Shown piece after piece: positions 20,355 to 32,650 of a DNA stretch of 41,489 nucleotides. The notes below the pieces were generated by a model, which had not been told where the DNA came from, did not search any database, and was given only the letters and a program-made list of their open reading frames with translations. Position 1 is the stretch's first letter, and the number at the start of each line of letters is the position of its first letter. This DNA comes from a virus, in IMG/VR virus record IMGVR_UViG_3300022752_000142, positions 1 to 41,489 of that record; one strand, 5' to 3'. Made by a program: the position numbers and the translations under genes.

Positions 20355-20813
20355 ATGTATACCAATACTTATAAAGGCAAATTTAGACCTACAAATTCTA
20401 AAAAATACAATGGGGATATTTTCAATATTGTTTATAGGTCTCTGTGGGAATTGAGATTTATGAAATGGTGCGATACTAATCCATCAGTTCTAGAATGGGG
20501 GTCAGAAACTGTCGTAATACCCTATATATCGCCTTTGGATAGAAAAATTCATAGGTATTTTGTAGATTTTTATATTAGAGTAAAGGATAAAAACAACGTT
20601 GTTCAAAGATACCTTATAGAAATAAAACCCGAAAAATTCACCAAACCTCCTGCAATTCCTAAAAATAAAACCAAAAAATTTATAGATGAGGTATTTCAGT
20701 ATGGTGTAAATGAAGCAAAATGGAAAGCAGCGTTTGAATTCTGTGAGGATAGAAATTGGAAATTTTTAATATTGACTGAAAAAGATTTAGGTATCAGTAA
20801 AACAAATAAATAA
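20355..20813 (+). CDS. gp4: Head completion protein gp4
   Basis: 152 residues, the size of T4 gp4 (150). Conserved family phrases: YTNTYKGKFRPTNSKKY, SLWELRFMKWCDTNPSVLEW, then HRYFVDFYIRV and RYLIEIKP. The E, D and E-x-K arrangement is that of a restriction-endonuclease-like (TnsA-type) fold; the family acts in head completion before tail joining. It is the first gene of the plus-strand late operon. Confidence 0.9.
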   Translation: MYTNTYKGKFRPTNSKKYNGDIFNIVYRSLWELRFMKWCDTNPSVLEWGSETVVIPYISPLDRKIHRYFVDFYIRVKDKNNVVQRYLIEIKPEKFTKPPAIPKNKTKKFIDEVFQYGVNEAKWKAAFEFCEDRNWKFLILTEKDLGISKTNK

Positions 20814-25141: not shown

Positions 25142-26071
25142 CTAGTCGTCGTTTGCTAGTTTAGCGAAGTACGAAATTGACTCCTCATCATCATCGAAAT
25201 CCAAGTCCTTAGCTGGGGCATTAGATTTAGTAACAACTTGAGTCTTAGGAGGACGTACTTCTTCTCCTTCGGACGTTGGATCATCCAAGTCCACATTTTC
25301 TGCTTTTTTGCTGCCTGATGCTACACCTGTAGCAAGCACCATATTTAATTTAGCTTTAAGATCTTCATATGACTTAAAATTCTTCGGATCCAAGAAATCC
25401 ATCAAAGAATGTTGCATACTCCACAATGCATCAATTTTATCATCATCATTAGATACAGGAGTAGTACTTTCAAATTCGGATTTGTCATAATTTCTGTACC
25501 CCTCAACGTTTCTAATTTTTAAACGAAAATTAGCTCCATCCCAGAAGTCAAACACGTTGATAGGTTTCTCATCCTCAAATTGAGGTTCAGCTTTATCTTT
25601 AATTTTTTCCCAAATTTTCTTGCCATATTTGAAAAGAAATACCTTACCTTCATTTTCAGGATGAGCAGGATCCTTAACAACTAGAATATTTGAGATGTAT
25701 GTTAAGCGGCGTTTCTGTTTACGAGCAATCTCTTTATTTGCTTCAACTCCAGAATTCCAAAGTTCAGTATTATAGTCAGACACAGGATCGTTTTTGCCGA
25801 TAGTGGTCAAAGAGTTTTCAATATACCATTTTCCGCCTGGACCTTGAAAACCATGATTCCAGATTTGTACAAACGGCAAATCTTCATTTTTGGGAGCAGG
25901 TAAAAATCTAATTACCGCATATCCATTACCCGATTTGTCTACTTCAGGTTGCCAAAAACGATTATCCTCTGATCGATTTTGAGTGGGATTAGAGATTTTT
26001 TCAACCTCTTTCATTAAAGCATCAAACCCACCACGAGATTTACGAAGTTCTGCTAAAGATGTGAAAGCCAT
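25142..26071 (-). CDS. gp32: Single-stranded DNA-binding protein gp32
   Basis: 309 residues (T4 gp32 has 301). N-terminal LAELRKSRGGFDAL corresponds to the basic cooperativity region. The core has the gp32 pattern NRFWQPEVDKSGNGYAVIRF LP, NHGFQGPGGKWYIEN, then RRLTYISNILVVKDP. The C-terminus is acidic (DLDFDDDEESISYFAKLAND), as in the T4 domain that binds gp59 and other partners. Unlike T4, the protein has no Cys, so the H-C-C-C zinc site of T4 gp32 is missing and replaced by an IENSLTTIGKNDPVSDYN segment. A ribosome binding site (AAGGAG) and a sigma70 promoter at 26190-26218 lie upstream. Confidence 0.93.
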   Translation of the reverse strand: MAFTSLAELRKSRGGFDALMKEVEKISNPTQNRSEDNRFWQPEVDKSGNGYAVIRFLPAPKNEDLPFVQIWNHGFQGPGGKWYIENSLTTIGKNDPVSDYNTELWNSGVEANKEIARKQKRRLTYISNILVVKDPAHPENEGKVFLFKYGKKIWEKIKDKAEPQFEDEKPINVFDFWDGANFRLKIRNVEGYRNYDKSEFESTTPVSNDDDKIDALWSMQHSLMDFLDPKNFKSYEDLKAKLNMVLATGVASGSKKAENVDLDDPTSEGEEVRPPKTQVVTKSNAPAKDLDFDDDEESISYFAKLANDD

Positions 26072-26307: not shown

Positions 26308-26535
26308 CTAAGCTGTATTATCATCTTCTCGATGTGAAACTACTAGATACGGCCACTGCGAAATTCTTTTAGTTATTTCTTGTTGGTTATATGCTAGTTT
26401 AACTATAAATTTTTGAGTTTCTTTTAAAGACTCAGTTAATTTATCTATTTGGTCCTCTAGAGAGGCCACATTCTTTTCCATATTAATTATCTTTTGGGCA
26501 TAGATGTCCAAATCTTGTTCTAAAAATTCTTCCAT
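26308..26535 (-). CDS. Small coiled-coil protein between gp59 and gp32
   Basis: 75 residues. Residues about 10-60 have heptad spacing of hydrophobics (IINMEKNVASLEDQIDKLTE SLKE), predicting a coiled coil, so an oligomeric or partner-binding role is possible. The frame overlaps the gp59 C-terminus by 53 bp, suggesting translational coupling. I do not recognise a family; its place in the gp33-gp59-gp32 cluster suggests replication or transcription. Confidence 0.6.
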   Translation of the reverse strand: MEEFLEQDLDIYAQKIINMEKNVASLEDQIDKLTESLKETQKFIVKLAYNQQEITKRISQWPYLVVSHREDDNTA

Positions 26536-27106
26536 ATTTTTCCGTATCTATTTTGAGAAAAGGTTTATACTTTTCGATCAATCTTGAAATATCTGGCCAT
26601 AAAATATCATCATTTATTTCTTTGTTTAGTGTATCTTTAAAATTTAAAGATTTATCAAGAATAACCAATGTTTCTATATTAATAGTTTTTCTTAGGTATG
26701 CTTTTATTATATATGGATGCTGACCTTTTGAGGAAGTAAATATATCCTTAATTTCTATATTATTATCTTCGATTTCTTGAGTCAATTTATCCAAATCATT
26801 TTCAAAGTTATATTGTAATGCTTCTAATCTTTTTTTCCATTCTAAATATCTTTCATTAGCTTCAGAATCGAAAACGCCTCCCCACCTATCTCCGGAAACA
26901 AAATTAGAAACTAAAAAATTTACTACCTCTTCATCAGTATATTTTTTTGCTATTTTACTTATACCATATAAATCTTTTCTCTTAAGAAAAGCATTTCTTG
27001 TTGCCTTTACCTTTCCCTTTTGTTTGATTACATCATATTTATCCGTAGTAAAATGTAATTTTAATGCTAAATAAAATTTATAAACTTCAAATGCGTCCAT
27101 TATCAT
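26483..27106 (-). CDS. gp59: Replicative helicase loader gp59
   Basis: 207 residues (T4 gp59 has 217). The N-terminus (MIMDAFEVYKFYLALKLHF, then KYDVIKQKGKVKATRNAFLK RKDLYGISK) aligns with the T4 gp59 pattern VYKLYLMIKQH...KYDVIK. The helical C-terminal half includes ETLVILDKSLNFKD, as T4's FETFILLDSFLN. gp59 loads gp41 helicase onto gp32-coated forks. The ATG overlaps the gp33 stop by 4 bp (ATGA). Confidence 0.85.
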   Translation of the reverse strand: MIMDAFEVYKFYLALKLHFTTDKYDVIKQKGKVKATRNAFLKRKDLYGISKIAKKYTDEEVVNFLVSNFVSGDRWGGVFDSEANERYLEWKKRLEALQYNFENDLDKLTQEIEDNNIEIKDIFTSSKGQHPYIIKAYLRKTINIETLVILDKSLNFKDTLNKEINDDILWPDISRLIEKYKPFLKIDTEKYGRIFRTRFGHLCPKDN

Positions 27107-27354
27107 AAAGGAAGCTTTCCTCTTTTCTTTAAGAAATTTTGCTCTTCTGCCTCTAACTGTATCTTTTCCTTTAGTGATTTATTCACTAATCCTGCAATGT
27201 TTTCAATGTCTATATCAATTTCCTCACAATACGAAATAACTGCTTCCATATAACCTATTTTTGTATCTTGAACTTTCTTTTCAATATACAAAGAAAATTC
27301 ATTAGGTGATCTAAATTTTTTGGTTATAATTAAACTATCTGTTATGGGATCCAT
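27103..27354 (-). CDS. gp33: Late promoter transcription accessory protein, gp33-like
   Basis: 83 residues when started at the ATG at 27354, which has an AGGAAA ribosome binding site; an upstream TTG in the same frame belongs to the promoter -35 box. The sequence (MDPITDSLIITKKFRSPNEF, then GYMEAVISYCEEIDID, SLKEKIQLEAEEQNFLKKRG KLPL) matches the short gp33-type coactivator of aquatic T4-like phages. In T4 gp33 binds the RNA polymerase beta flap and the sliding clamp to activate late promoters. Its position before gp59 and gp32 equals that in T4, and a perfect sigma70 promoter precedes it. Confidence 0.75.
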   Translation of the reverse strand: MDPITDSLIITKKFRSPNEFSLYIEKKVQDTKIGYMEAVISYCEEIDIDIENIAGLVNKSLKEKIQLEAEEQNFLKKRGKLPL

Positions 27355-27364
27355 CTTATTTCCT

Positions 27365-27393
27365 ATTATAATGTAAATTATTTTTCTTGTCAA
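27365..27393 (-). promoter_or_regulatory. Perfect sigma70 promoter of the gp33-gp59 cluster
   Basis: Minus strand TTGACA (27388-27393), 17 bp, TATAAT (27365-27370), 11 bp before the gp33 ATG. Start of transcription would be near or just upstream of the ribosome binding site, so the leader is very short. Confidence 0.85.
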
Positions 27394-28644: not shown

Positions 28645-28662
28645 AAAACCATTAGAAAATGG
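28645..28662 (-). terminator. Weak terminator-like hairpin after the tmRNA coding piece
   Basis: On the minus strand CCATT-TTCT-AATGG followed by TTTT. The stem is only 5 bp, so it may instead mark the 3' processing end of the tmRNA precursor. Confidence 0.4.
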
Positions 28663-28865
28663 AAAATGGACTTGGTACTATCCAACCACTTCTGTTACCG
28701 AGCAGGTTGGGACCATCTCTGAGTCTAAGTTGAACCTATGCGGCTAAACGAACCTCAAACGCACTATCATTTGCTGCGTCTATTTGCTTTTGCTAGGATT
28801 ACGTCCTTCGCCTATCGAGTTGTCCACTTACTTACTATTTGCCCCGTCGAAACTTGTTCAGGCCC
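28663..28865 (-). ncRNA. ssrA: tmRNA coding piece with tag reading frame
   Basis: Begins GGGCCTGAACAAGTTTCGAC at 28865. A pseudoknot-like region and AATAGAC precede the frame GCA GCA AAT GAT AGT GCG ..., stop TAG at 28736-28738. By comparison with E. coli (AATAGTC-GCA) the resume codon is probably the GCA at 28775-28777, giving A-ANDSAFEVRLAA; starting at the next GCA gives ANDSAFEVRLAA. After the stop a long hairpin (CCAACC/GGTTGG with an extending TGGT/ACCA) resembles a downstream pseudoknot or helix 5. The LAA end fits a ClpXP degron. The 3' end is approximate. Confidence 0.82.
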
Positions 28866-28917
28866 ACCAAATAATCTCTCAGCCGACCTTACGGTATTCT
28901 ACGGAGAGAGACCATTA

Positions 28918-28985
28918 GGTGGACCTGGGCGGTACTGCCCCGCCGTCCGCAGCACTTTTCTGCTTGCTTCATACAACTATATCAA
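28918..28985 (-). ncRNA. ssrA: tmRNA acceptor piece
   Basis: On the minus strand: AGTTGT (28973-28978, P2 strand), then GGACG, a perfect 5 bp T-stem GGCGG/CCGCC (28928-28944) with loop GGCAGTA, the acceptor strand CAGGTCC (28921-28927), discriminator A and CC. The next base is T, so the final A of CCA would be added after processing. The T loop lacks the TTC of ordinary tRNAs. The 5' end is not defined by sequence and is placed just after the FkbM stop. Confidence 0.8.
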
Positions 28986-28988
28986 TAT

Positions 28989-29081
28989 TTATTGGTATAT
29001 TATTTTACATATATCTCTAGGATACATACCTGTTCTATTGCCATCTATGTGTAATTGTGCAATATTAACTTTTTCTTTAAA
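28989..29081 (-). pseudogene. Fragment of a SleB-type hydrolase fused to the FkbM gene
   Basis: Residues 224-253 of the FkbM protein (FKEKVNIAQLHIDGNRTGMY then PRDICKIIYQ, stop) match hydrolase residues 67-96 at 14 of 30 positions without a gap, including PxDICK and YQ. The hydrolase continues after YQ; here a stop follows. Confidence 0.65.
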
Positions 29082-29750
29082 TAAAAAGTCTATAGGATTG
29101 GAGGATTCTAAATTTTTTATTTTTCGCGCTATCTCAGGATTAATAACATCTTTATGTATCCACCAATCTTCATAAGGATGACTTTGGTGAACTAAAGTAT
29201 TATTAATTATTAATTCATAACCATAATGTTCAAGTATTTGAATTGATTTATTCTTTACCTCTACACTTTTAGGTCCGCTATACAAATCATGCTCAAAAGT
29301 AATAATTCCAAACTTGTAAGTATCCAGGGGCATTTTTTCTAAACATTTCAATGTATTACTTGCAGGATCAATATCCAGTTGAAGGTAATCTATATTAGTT
29401 AATTCACCAAATCTATTTTTAAGTAATTCACTATAATCTAAAGTTAAAGCATCTGAACATAAAAACATATCAGTAGGTCTAATATCTGCCCATTCTGCTC
29501 TAAAATCATCCAATTCAATACTTATTCCATACCAATTAAAAAGTTTTGATAATAAGTAAGTATTATTAAAATGAGTTGGTTGCCTGCAACCTATTTCTAA
29601 AAATGTACCATTTTTCTTACCATTTGTACATGTTAAAATAAAAATATCTTGTAAGGCTTCACTGTATGAACATCGAATGTCTTCGAAATCAGGAAAATCG
29701 AATCTTAGTTTATTACTAGATGAGAAATTATGGTATGGAGTATTATTCAT
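28989..29750 (-). CDS. FkbM-type methyltransferase with a SleB-like C-terminal remnant
   Basis: 253 residues. Residues about 25-215 match the FkbM family of SAM-dependent methyltransferases: SYSEALQDIFILTC, NGTFLEIGCRQPTHFNNTYL (SAM motif I around 50), WYGISIELDD, then IDYLQLDIDPAS and FGIITFEHDLYSG. FkbM enzymes often O-methylate sugars, so a role in modifying surface glycans or phage adhesin glycans is possible. The last 30 residues do not belong to FkbM; they align without gaps to residues 67-96 of the SleB-type hydrolase. The gene is followed directly by the tmRNA. It lies in the operon of the 29932-29960 promoter. Confidence 0.75.
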   Translation of the reverse strand: MNNTPYHNFSSSNKLRFDFPDFEDIRCSYSEALQDIFILTCTNGKKNGTFLEIGCRQPTHFNNTYLLSKLFNWYGISIELDDFRAEWADIRPTDMFLCSDALTLDYSELLKNRFGELTNIDYLQLDIDPASNTLKCLEKMPLDTYKFGIITFEHDLYSGPKSVEVKNKSIQILEHYGYELIINNTLVHQSHPYEDWWIHKDVINPEIARKIKNLESSNPIDFLFKEKVNIAQLHIDGNRTGMYPRDICKIIYQ

Positions 29751-29931: not shown

Positions 29932-29960
29932 ATTATAATTGAAATATACTAGCCTGTCAA
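29932..29960 (-). promoter_or_regulatory. Perfect sigma70 promoter before the small ORF, FkbM and tmRNA
   Basis: Minus strand TTGACA (29955-29960), 17 bp, TATAAT (29932-29937). The TGA stop of the exonuclease gene lies inside the -35 box. It starts about 20 bp before the 29911 ATG. Confidence 0.85.
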
Positions 29961-30625
29961 GCACTAGTTAACCTTTCGTATTCGTTTCTATACAACAACA
30001 AATACTTTACCCAATTATCCCTCTTTTCAAAAAATACTTGAGGGTAATCATTTTCGACAGATATAATTATCACTAATCTATTAATTGGAACACCTGTCAT
30101 TTCTTCATACATTATTGAATAAGCAGCGCATTGCATAAAGTATGAATGAATATGATCTTTTTCTTTTCTTCTTGATGAAGTTTTAAAATCTATTACTGCT
30201 AATTTACCTTTATACTCACCTATACAATCAACTGTACCAGATAAACGTAAATGATTAGAATACATTTGTTGTTCTTGACAATGTACATTGTCTATATTTT
30301 CTAATATTGGTTGAATTGATAGAAAGTTTTTTAGATCAAATGGATTTTGTATGTCGCAATCTTCATTATTAATATACTTTTCAACAATATTATGTAATCG
30401 AGTACCTCTTCCTGCTGCTGCTTTAGATATTCTGTTGGCTTCGGCTTCACCAACCTTTTTTCGCCATTCTATAAGTCCTTCTTTATTATGCAATGAAAGA
30501 ATAGTAGTTACCGAAGGATATTTGTTACCCTCCGGTGTTACATAATATCTGGTGCCATCTGGTCTTGTTACTCTTTCTAATTTAGGTATGGGCTTCTTCG
30601 TCCCTACATGATTAAATTGCTTCAC
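29957..30625 (-). CDS. PD-(D/E)XK exonuclease, RecB/Cas4-like
   Basis: 222 residues. Catalytic signature: GRGTRLHNIVEKY around 72-84, then LSGTVDCIGEYKGKLAVIDF KTS around 130-152, giving the D and D-x-K core. This is the PDDEXK_1 family, used for recombination or DNA degradation. The start is GTG at 30625 with an AAGGAT site 6 bp upstream; no better ATG exists. It begins 2 bp after the GH19 stop and is the last gene of the late operon. Confidence 0.85.
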   Translation of the reverse strand: MKQFNHVGTKKPIPKLERVTRPDGTRYYVTPEGNKYPSVTTILSLHNKEGLIEWRKKVGEAEANRISKAAAGRGTRLHNIVEKYINNEDCDIQNPFDLKNFLSIQPILENIDNVHCQEQQMYSNHLRLSGTVDCIGEYKGKLAVIDFKTSSRRKEKDHIHSYFMQCAAYSIMYEEMTGVPINRLVIIISVENDYPQVFFEKRDNWVKYLLLYRNEYERLTSA

Positions 30626-30627
30626 GT

Positions 30628-31260
30628 TTATCCTTGTAATACCTCAATGGCATGATTATAATGTTTAACACGATCTTCTAACCCAATGAACCCACCATTG
30701 ATACGTTTAGTCATCATTCTTAAATCTTGAGCATCAGCTAATTCATTTAATTTATTGGCAGTCCAGAACCAGCATGCAGAATGAAGCGCATAATATGGTT
30801 GGGTCAATACATCAGGATTTTGTAATAATGTATCATCCTCAAACATAGCCATACTACATCTTTGATAATTAGATTTACCGGTAAGTTGAATCAATCCCCT
30901 GCCTCTATATCTATAGCCTTCGCCTGATGCTTCAGACCCATTACCCATTCTATTTGCATAAACACGGTTAGCAATTTTTTCAGGTTGTCTGTGGTATTGT
31001 TGTGCAATCTCAGCAGATGGGAAATATTTTGGGAAAACTTTTCTTAAACCATCAGCAGAATAATTTAAATTCTCCGATAAGATAGTGAATCCGCCAGATT
31101 CATGAGCACATTGCGCTATAAATGCAGCTGTTCTAGCTATATCATTTATCTCATACTGAGGCAACACATCAACTAATGATTCATACCATTCACTTAAATT
31201 TTTGACACGAGGTATAAGATGTTGTAGTTGTTCCTCAGTAAAATCGAAATCAAATGACAT
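30628..31260 (-). CDS. Endolysin, GH19-type (chitinase-like muramidase)
   Basis: 210 residues, covering one GH19 domain with no signal peptide. Candidate catalytic Glu are E54 (AAFIAQCAHESGGF) and a Glu in NGSEASGEGYRYRGRG around 110-114, followed by GLIQLTGKSNY, the conserved GRGxIQLTG block. GH19 endolysins cut murein beta-1,4 bonds and need a holin to reach the wall. The ATG overlaps the iscU stop (ATGTCATTTGA), so it is coupled to the Fe-S genes. Confidence 0.9.
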   Translation of the reverse strand: MSFDFDFTEEQLQHLIPRVKNLSEWYESLVDVLPQYEINDIARTAAFIAQCAHESGGFTILSENLNYSADGLRKVFPKYFPSAEIAQQYHRQPEKIANRVYANRMGNGSEASGEGYRYRGRGLIQLTGKSNYQRCSMAMFEDDTLLQNPDVLTQPYYALHSACWFWTANKLNELADAQDLRMMTKRINGGFIGLEDRVKHYNHAIEVLQG

Positions 31261-31636
31261 TGTTTTTCTCCTTAAAATCTTTTATAGCAGCCTTGATCGC
31301 ATCCTCTGCCAATATGGAGCAGTGTATTTTAACGGGTGGTAACGCAAGTTCTTCTGCAATTTGAGTATTGCGAATAGTGCCGGCTTCGTCGAGACTCTTA
31401 CCCTTGACCCATTCCGTAACGAGCGAACTAGACGCAATCGCTGAACCACATCCATATGTTTTAAATTTAGCATCCGTAATGATTCCATTTTCATCTACCT
31501 GTATTTGTAGTTTCATTACATCACCACACGCTGGTGCGCCAACCATGCCTGTACCTATTCTTTTCACTTCTTTAGCAAAAGAGCCAACATTACGAGGATT
31601 TTCGTAGTGATCTAGTACTTGAGATGAGTAAGCCAT
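31250..31636 (-). CDS. iscU: Iron-sulfur cluster scaffold IscU
   Basis: 128 residues from the ATG at 31636, the same length as E. coli IscU; a longer upstream frame exists but its extra residues do not belong to the family. All functional residues are present: C37, D39 (APACGDVM), C63 (KTYGCGSAIASSS), H105 and C106, and the HscA-binding LPPVK motif before them. IscU receives sulfur from IscS and iron to build 2Fe-2S clusters and passes them on with HscA/HscB. The sequence looks like beta/gamma-proteobacterial IscU, suggesting capture from a host. IscS, HscA and Fdx are not in the window, so host partners would be used. It starts 4 bp after the A-type carrier stop. Confidence 0.95.
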   Translation of the reverse strand: MAYSSQVLDHYENPRNVGSFAKEVKRIGTGMVGAPACGDVMKLQIQVDENGIITDAKFKTYGCGSAIASSSLVTEWVKGKSLDEAGTIRNTQIAEELALPPVKIHCSILAEDAIKAAIKDFKEKNNVI

Positions 31637-31640
31637 TTTT

Positions 31641-31961
31641 TTATGCAGCGAAGGATGAGCCACAACCACAAGTAGTTGTAGCATTAGGATTTTTGATTAC
31701 AAACTGTGCAGATGCTATATCTTTTTTATAATCTATTTCGGCTCCGTCCAGATAAGACATGGACATAGCATCGACCAATACTTTTATCCCGTCTTTTTCT
31801 AATACAAAATCATCGTCGCCTTGTCTTTCATCAAATGTAAAACCATATTGAAATCCCGAACAACCTCCGCCCTGAATAAAAACTCTTAAAGGAGATGTTT
31901 CGTTTTCTTCTAATTGAACTTGTCTAATCTGATTGAAAGCTTTATCTGTTACAGTTAACAT
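31641..31961 (-). CDS. erpA: A-type Fe-S carrier protein (ErpA/IscA family)
   Basis: 106 residues. Cluster ligands are C34 ([11 protein letters not shown]), C98 and C100 (TTCGCGSSF). The [16 protein letters not shown] segment and the CGCGSSF end favour ErpA over IscA, but the family members are hard to separate without a tree. It transfers Fe-S clusters from IscU to apo-enzymes. The ATG overlaps the Bax-inhibitor stop (TAATG), and IscU follows 4 bp later, so the pair is co-translated. Confidence 0.93.
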
Positions 31962-32650
31962 TACTCTCTTTTCTCCCCAAATAGATTAAGAAGACTTAAA
32001 AAGATATTAATAAAATTTAGATATAAACTAAGTGCCCCAATTACTTCTACGTTACGACTATCACCAAACATAATCATTTCACGTATCTTTTGGGTGTCGT
32101 AAGCAGTTAATCCCAAAAAGATAATGATAGCAAGACTGCTAATAACCATGCTGAATACACTACTACCAATGAAAATGTTGACAATACTGGCAAGAATAAT
32201 AGCGATAAGACCAACAAACATAAACTTTCCGAGACTATCCAAGCTCTTTTTTGTAAAGTATCCATAAAAACTCATTACTCCAAATAAAATTGCAGCACTC
32301 ATAAATGCTGTAACAATTGATCCTAGTTTATATACTACAAATATAGTAGCGAAACTAAGTCCCATAATCATAGAAAATCCAACCAACATTAACTGAGCCA
32401 ATTCTCTGGATGGATTAGAATTCAAGGCAAAACTAAATCCCATAACTGCTGCTAAGGGCAAAAAGATAGTTACCCATTTCATCCAACCAGTAAAAAAGAA
32501 TGCCATTAGCGCAGGAACACTGCTTATGGCAAGCGCTGTAAGCATACTTACCAAAGTAGCCAGTGCCATGTGTTTATAAACACCAGCCATTTTTGAATTT
32601 ATTTCGCTAGCTCCCAGATACCCAGGAGCCATATAAGTAGTTGTACTCAT
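31961..32650 (-). CDS. Bax inhibitor-1/YccA family membrane protein
   Basis: 229 residues with seven hydrophobic segments between about 27 and 222 and the family ending [20 protein letters not shown] followed by [20 protein letters not shown]. The family (TMBIM, bacterial YccA/YbhL) forms pH-sensitive calcium leak or protease-modulating membrane proteins; YccA of E. coli restrains FtsH. In a phage it might keep the membrane or FtsH-controlled proteins stable until lysis; that is inference. It overlaps the preceding small gene by TAATG. Confidence 0.9.

Follow-up and report, generated by a model that had tools for sequence, protein, structure and literature searches.

A circularly permuted tmRNA gene on a T4-like phage contig

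Two-piece tmRNAs and the gene in the window

The two-piece tmRNA of bacteria was reportedly described in Caulobacter by Keiler, Shapiro and Williams in 2000, its processing and function being shown there. Among phages, an ARAGORN-based survey of 2022 found tmRNA in 402 of 18,146 genomes, the 133 unique structures including 53 of the two-piece type, 50 of which came from marine or aquatic phages, and reported a permuted tmRNA for Melnitz among others (PMC9004378), and the tmRNA database of 2025 contains phage sequences as well (PMC11915505). Permuted tmRNAs of phages are therefore already published, which settles a question left by a first-pass annotation of the DNA treated here, and the gene presented below is one more of its kind.

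The window, i.e., the whole contig of 41,489 bases that was analysed, holds on its minus strand, at about 28978-28680, a complete circularly permuted tmRNA gene (ssrA) of the two-piece type, recognized far beyond chance. The Rfam model RF04321 (tmRNA_permuted) matches positions 28978-28736 (minus strand) over its full length (model 1-213 of 213) with 108.3 bits and an E-value of 2.3e-20, the curated cut-off being 47 bits, and RF01849 (alpha_tmRNA) matches 29023-28680 on the same strand with 59.5 bits, above its cut-off of 50 (cmscan). The first-pass annotation had proposed a phage with its own permuted tmRNA at this place, naming Rfam covariance models and ARAGORN as checks. The former bear the proposal out; the latter missed the gene, reporting no tmRNA in the window at default settings and noise alone at relaxed thresholds. 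Run on trimmed copies, ARAGORN also missed 7 of 23 RF04321 matches in related phages, although Rfam accepts them, so that the standard tRNA/tmRNA finder overlooks this gene and those of roughly one in three tested relatives, and surveys based on it probably undercount the permuted tmRNAs of phages. Matches to RF04321 are present in 23 of 50 related virus records and in four of four isolate genomes; HTVC008M and Synechococcus phage BUCT-ZZ01 carry one. This confirms that T4-like phages from aquatic habitats commonly have the permuted tmRNA as an accessory gene. For the relatives L113, L123 and L143, the scoring model is beta_tmRNA. The match in HTVC008M lies at 145161-145370 (90.6 bits), ARAGORN reading its tag as ANFNEYALAA.

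Parts, fold and conserved pairing

On the minus strand, an acceptor/T-arm piece (28978-28920) comes first and is separated by 54 nt from a coding piece (28865-28680), a layout from which a two-piece state of the RNA would follow. Every element named in the first-pass annotation lies where it had been placed. The acceptor piece begins with AGTTGT (28973-28978), whose pairing with ACAACT (28818-28823) had been suggested as P2 and is kept in the relatives (81% of cells in 36 distinct relatives, against 36-38% when the strands are slid by one or two columns). The T-arm (28928-28944) follows, with a 5-bp stem, GGCGG (28940-28944) and CCGCC (28928-28932), and the loop GGCAGTA, which is of the alphaproteobacterial GGCRGUA type (GGCgGUA being the alpha_tmRNA consensus in the RF01849 alignment). 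After it stand the acceptor 3' strand CAGGTCC (28921-28927) and the discriminator A (28920), which together make up 28920-28927, and then CC and a T. The intervening segment (28866-28919) measures 54 nt including that CC, and the spacer of about 52 bp in the earlier annotation corresponds to the 52 nt after it, up to GGGCCTG (28859-28865). With this acceptor 5' strand, joined to the D-loop analogue AACAAGTTTCGAC (28846-28865 for both), the coding piece begins, and the pairing of GGGCCTG with CAGGTCC across the two pieces comprises all seven of the predicted pairs, the third being G3-U70, the alanine identity pair, shared by every one of the 31 distinct phage types listed. Across the relatives, pairing figures for the acceptor and the T-stem are biased, because the parser demanded pairing there.

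In the coding piece, GTTTCGACGGGG and the tag frame are both present, as had been read before. The PK1 region (28793-28819) is betaproteobacteria-like in sequence, a similar motif occurring in tmRNA genes of Alcaligenaceae, and a scan with its core recovered 37 virus contig stretches in which it is conserved. The tag frame (28736-28777) opens with a GCA resume codon straight after AATAGAC and reads GCA...GCC GCA TAG, i.e., an intact AANDSAFEVRLAA-stop with an alanine resume codon and the ending LAA. Towards the 3' end, a hairpin/pseudoknot candidate, CCAACC...CGGTAACAGAA...GGTTGG (28682-28710), aligns to the 3' end of alpha_tmRNA (GGCAACAGAA) and is near-identical in the relative L120.

The two loops of the tRNA-like part change together. 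In 31 distinct phage tmRNA types, G55 in the T-loop (GGCRGUR or UGCRANU) goes with a D-loop AG in 11 of 11 cases and U55 with a D-loop GG in 20 of 20 (Fisher p 1.2e-8, with kinship among the types ignored; the numbering 18/19/55 follows the tRNA convention as assigned in this analysis). All nine of the listed bacterial types, which come almost entirely from Alcaligenaceae, are U55/GG, and the window is G55/AG, as is the alpha_tmRNA consensus, even though its PK1 resembles that of betaproteobacterial tmRNA. Since positions 55 and 18 flank the intervening segment on opposite sides, their joint change speaks for selection acting on the fold as assembled. Could the gene be, nonetheless, a captured tmRNA decaying in the phage, a relic without function? 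Its encoded CCA has been lost by one base, the acceptor end reading CC-T where nearly all relatives have CCA (a position that tmRNA genes do not always encode; PMC11915505), and no RF04321 gene was found in some related contigs, though many of these are fragments. However, the tag, the acceptor, the T-stem and P2 are all intact in the window, the body from D-loop to PK1 is identical to that of the relative L084 in 88 of 88 nt, the locus is maintained in diverged isolates, and the fit of the window to a strict D-loop/T-loop covariation appears to argue against decay as well. A relic is, in consequence, very unlikely, and we consider it probable that the window carries a functional, phage-encoded permuted ssrA gene whose predicted two-piece RNA would rescue stalled ribosomes by means of the host SmpB.

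Probable mosaic structure and intervening segments

Judged by sequence identity, the window tmRNA appears to be a mosaic, whose body, intervening segment, and tag with 3' end match three different phages. Besides the identical D-loop-to-PK1 half, the acceptor/T-arm half of L084 is 97% identical to that of the window, whereas its tag, 3' end and intervening segment show background identity. The intervening segment of the window shows 94% identity to the one in L113 and L144 and about 50% (background) to the one in L083 and L084; the T-loop of L113 and L144 is TTCGATT, in contrast to GGCAGTA in the window. The tag and 3' end, for their part, match L120 in 93 of 100 positions. A degenerate scan of virus contigs for the window tag found none, because its nearest copy, that of L120, which surfaced through the PK1 scan, reads GCG AAT GAT AAC, with Asn in place of Ser; the L120 contig stops 103 nt before the PK1 core, within its intervening segment. 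Likewise, L113 and L144 have an identical intervening segment and different tags, and the ANDDYFYQDLKLAA tag family was found on many different tmRNA bodies. As regards a bacterial source, the pattern GGCRGTACCGCCCAGGTCCACC is absent from the bacterial genomes searched, so that the exact T-arm/acceptor was traced to no bacterial donor, and searching one Alcaligenaceae genome and one 'Alteromonadales' MAG with the DNA of the whole gene gave no match.

Several module combinations recur across contigs of separate metagenomes, an argument against assembly chimeras as a general cause; this recurrence does not cover the window itself, whose mosaic junction might in principle have arisen by chimeric assembly, its body module being common to more than one phage. 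On balance, we lean towards the view that ssrA is modular and recombining in these T4-like aquatic phages, with the tRNA-like body, the intervening segment, and the tag with the 3' pseudoknot swapped independently while the T-loop and D-loop stay matched to each other, and with small genes finding a niche in the intervening segment; the window would be one such mosaic, from at least three sources. No description of module exchange, phage-wide loop covariation or segment-nested genes was found in the literature searched, which covered few subscription journals, and their novelty is not established.

The variety of tags bears on another reading, in which the phage RNA is a decoy or an interfering tmRNA that competes for SmpB or AlaRS with the host's own tmRNA, or diverts tagging, instead of adding rescue capacity. 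Tags that end in LAA are like many bacterial ones. A pure decoy would need no tag, and the gene in the window, whose tag ends in LAA, and nearly all of its relatives retain a complete tag, a resume codon and a stop. Nevertheless, these phages differ widely in their tags and exchange them, and the tag-less form of phage DS6A reportedly inhibits the E. coli tmRNA (cited in PMC11915505). Taken together, interference is an unlikely role, and rescue is the one preferred here. Tag swaps on near-identical bodies are in any case a natural experiment, which can be taken up in culture with Melnitz or Mosig, for instance, on whether rescue alone matters or a particular fate of the tagged protein.

Intervening segments differ widely elsewhere; their lengths were taken from the stricter of two parses, the looser one being wrong for L091, L122, L130, L132, L139, L140 and L142. 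In L175, L176, L177, L178, L179, L186 and L211 (also L108/L109), a segment of 456-458 nt holds an ORF of 146-155 aa. The 146-aa ORF, which begins 15 nt inside the segment, encodes a homologue of staphylococcal nuclease (PF00565, E 2.6e-12); the protein of L211 is about 60% identical, in the same nested arrangement, and the nuclease gene also occurs on other contigs, without a tmRNA match. Shorter ORFs were read in L127/L133/L141 (60 aa), L123/L128 (32 aa, hydrophobic), L149, i.e., Melnitz (54-58 aa), and L163 (37 aa, read by eye); shuffle tests favour those of L127 (0.018) and L149 (0.006) and not those of L123/L128 (0.43 and 0.14). At the other extreme, the segment of L097, L112 and L143 is just 7 nt long, with no CC after the discriminator, and, judged by gp32 (86%), the L112/L097 contig is the nearest one to the window.

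Locus, proposed function and known systems

The contig carries T4-like baseplate genes, gp32, gp33, gp59, PhoH and DNA ligase and is a fragment, of 41 kb, of a T4-like phage, which is presumably lytic, as the first-pass annotation called it. Its gp32 is 54% identical to that of cyanophages and of Pelagibacter phage HTVC008M. With the baseplate wedge proteins of HTVC008M and Melnitz, its own shows 38-39% identity. The tmRNA sits, all on the minus strand, between a PD-(D/E)XK nuclease (29957-30625) and the genes for a gp33-like late-transcription coactivator (27103-27393; PF16805, E 1.6e-22), a gp59-like helicase loader (26483-27106; PF08993/PF08994) and a gp32-like single-strand DNA-binding protein (25142-26071; phrog_224, E 2.2e-117), in synteny with Melnitz and Mosig. 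An 88-aa ORF, an endolysin and a 111-aa ORF lie between tmRNA and gp33, and upstream, on the same strand, an ORF of 253 aa (28989-29750), with no match in PHROG or Pfam, has its stop codon ending 10 nt before P2. The same phage also encodes a NifU-like N-terminal domain (31250-31684), a Bax1-I family protein (31961-32650) and a TnsA-like endonuclease domain (20355-20813). In DNA similarity searches, the locus gave no match among INPHARED phages and chance-level matches alone among plasmids. Integration often takes place at tmRNA genes (PMC11915505), and the gene could be taken for a fragment of a host tmRNA that an integrase left behind at its attachment site; this is hardly credible for a complete gene in a T4-like genome, with no integrase among the annotated neighbours and a fixed locus beside gp33 in separate isolates.

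There is no clear promoter directly upstream of the window tmRNA. The late-promoter motif TAAATA occurs upstream in 7 of 35 cases against 1.2 expected, the stretch searched excluding the window's own AATAAATA, and the upstream regions of several relatives look sigma-70-like by eye; the authors of Melnitz placed its tmRNA behind an early promoter (PMC9004378). In the proposed mechanism, transcription would yield a precursor that starts with the acceptor/T-arm piece, tRNA-processing enzymes of the host would remove the 54-nt intervening segment, and the 3' end would be completed to CCA, the acceptor stem and P2 holding the two pieces together. The host AlaRS would then charge the tmRNA through G3-U70 and, with the host SmpB, it would rescue ribosomes stalled during infection, the stalled products being tagged with AANDSAFEVRLAA for host proteases. 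No SmpB gene was found in 19 phage records (control genomes were positive in 10 of 14), which fits a dependence on the host SmpB. From the sequence, rescue with the host SmpB during infection is the most likely function, and rescue late in infection or redirected proteolysis may be what benefits the phage.

The closest relatives by layout are Mosig (a Pelagibacter phage, MT647606) and Melnitz (a Methylophilales phage, MZ577097), whose annotated SsrA has, as in the window, a PD-(D/E)XK nuclease upstream and gp33 and then gp59 downstream, and Melnitz also has the T-loop GGCAGTA in common with it. Unlike them, however, the window has another body, with its betaproteobacteria-like PK1, another intervening segment, three small genes from tmRNA to gp33 and the 253-aa ORF before the tmRNA, and the tags differ (GEDNFALAA in Mosig, ANDNYVPVDYALAA in Melnitz and AANDSAFEVRLAA in the window). 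The gene order of the Caulobacter two-piece tmRNA, i.e., acceptor piece, intervening segment and coding piece, is that of the window, although processing and function were demonstrated in Caulobacter, whereas the window has a phage gene known from its sequence and without an encoded CCA. With respect to the Rfam families RF04321 and RF01849, the window likewise combines a GGCRGUA T-loop with an AG in the D-loop, both matching the alpha consensus, and it departs from RF01849 in a PK1 and a body that are like the betaproteobacterial type.
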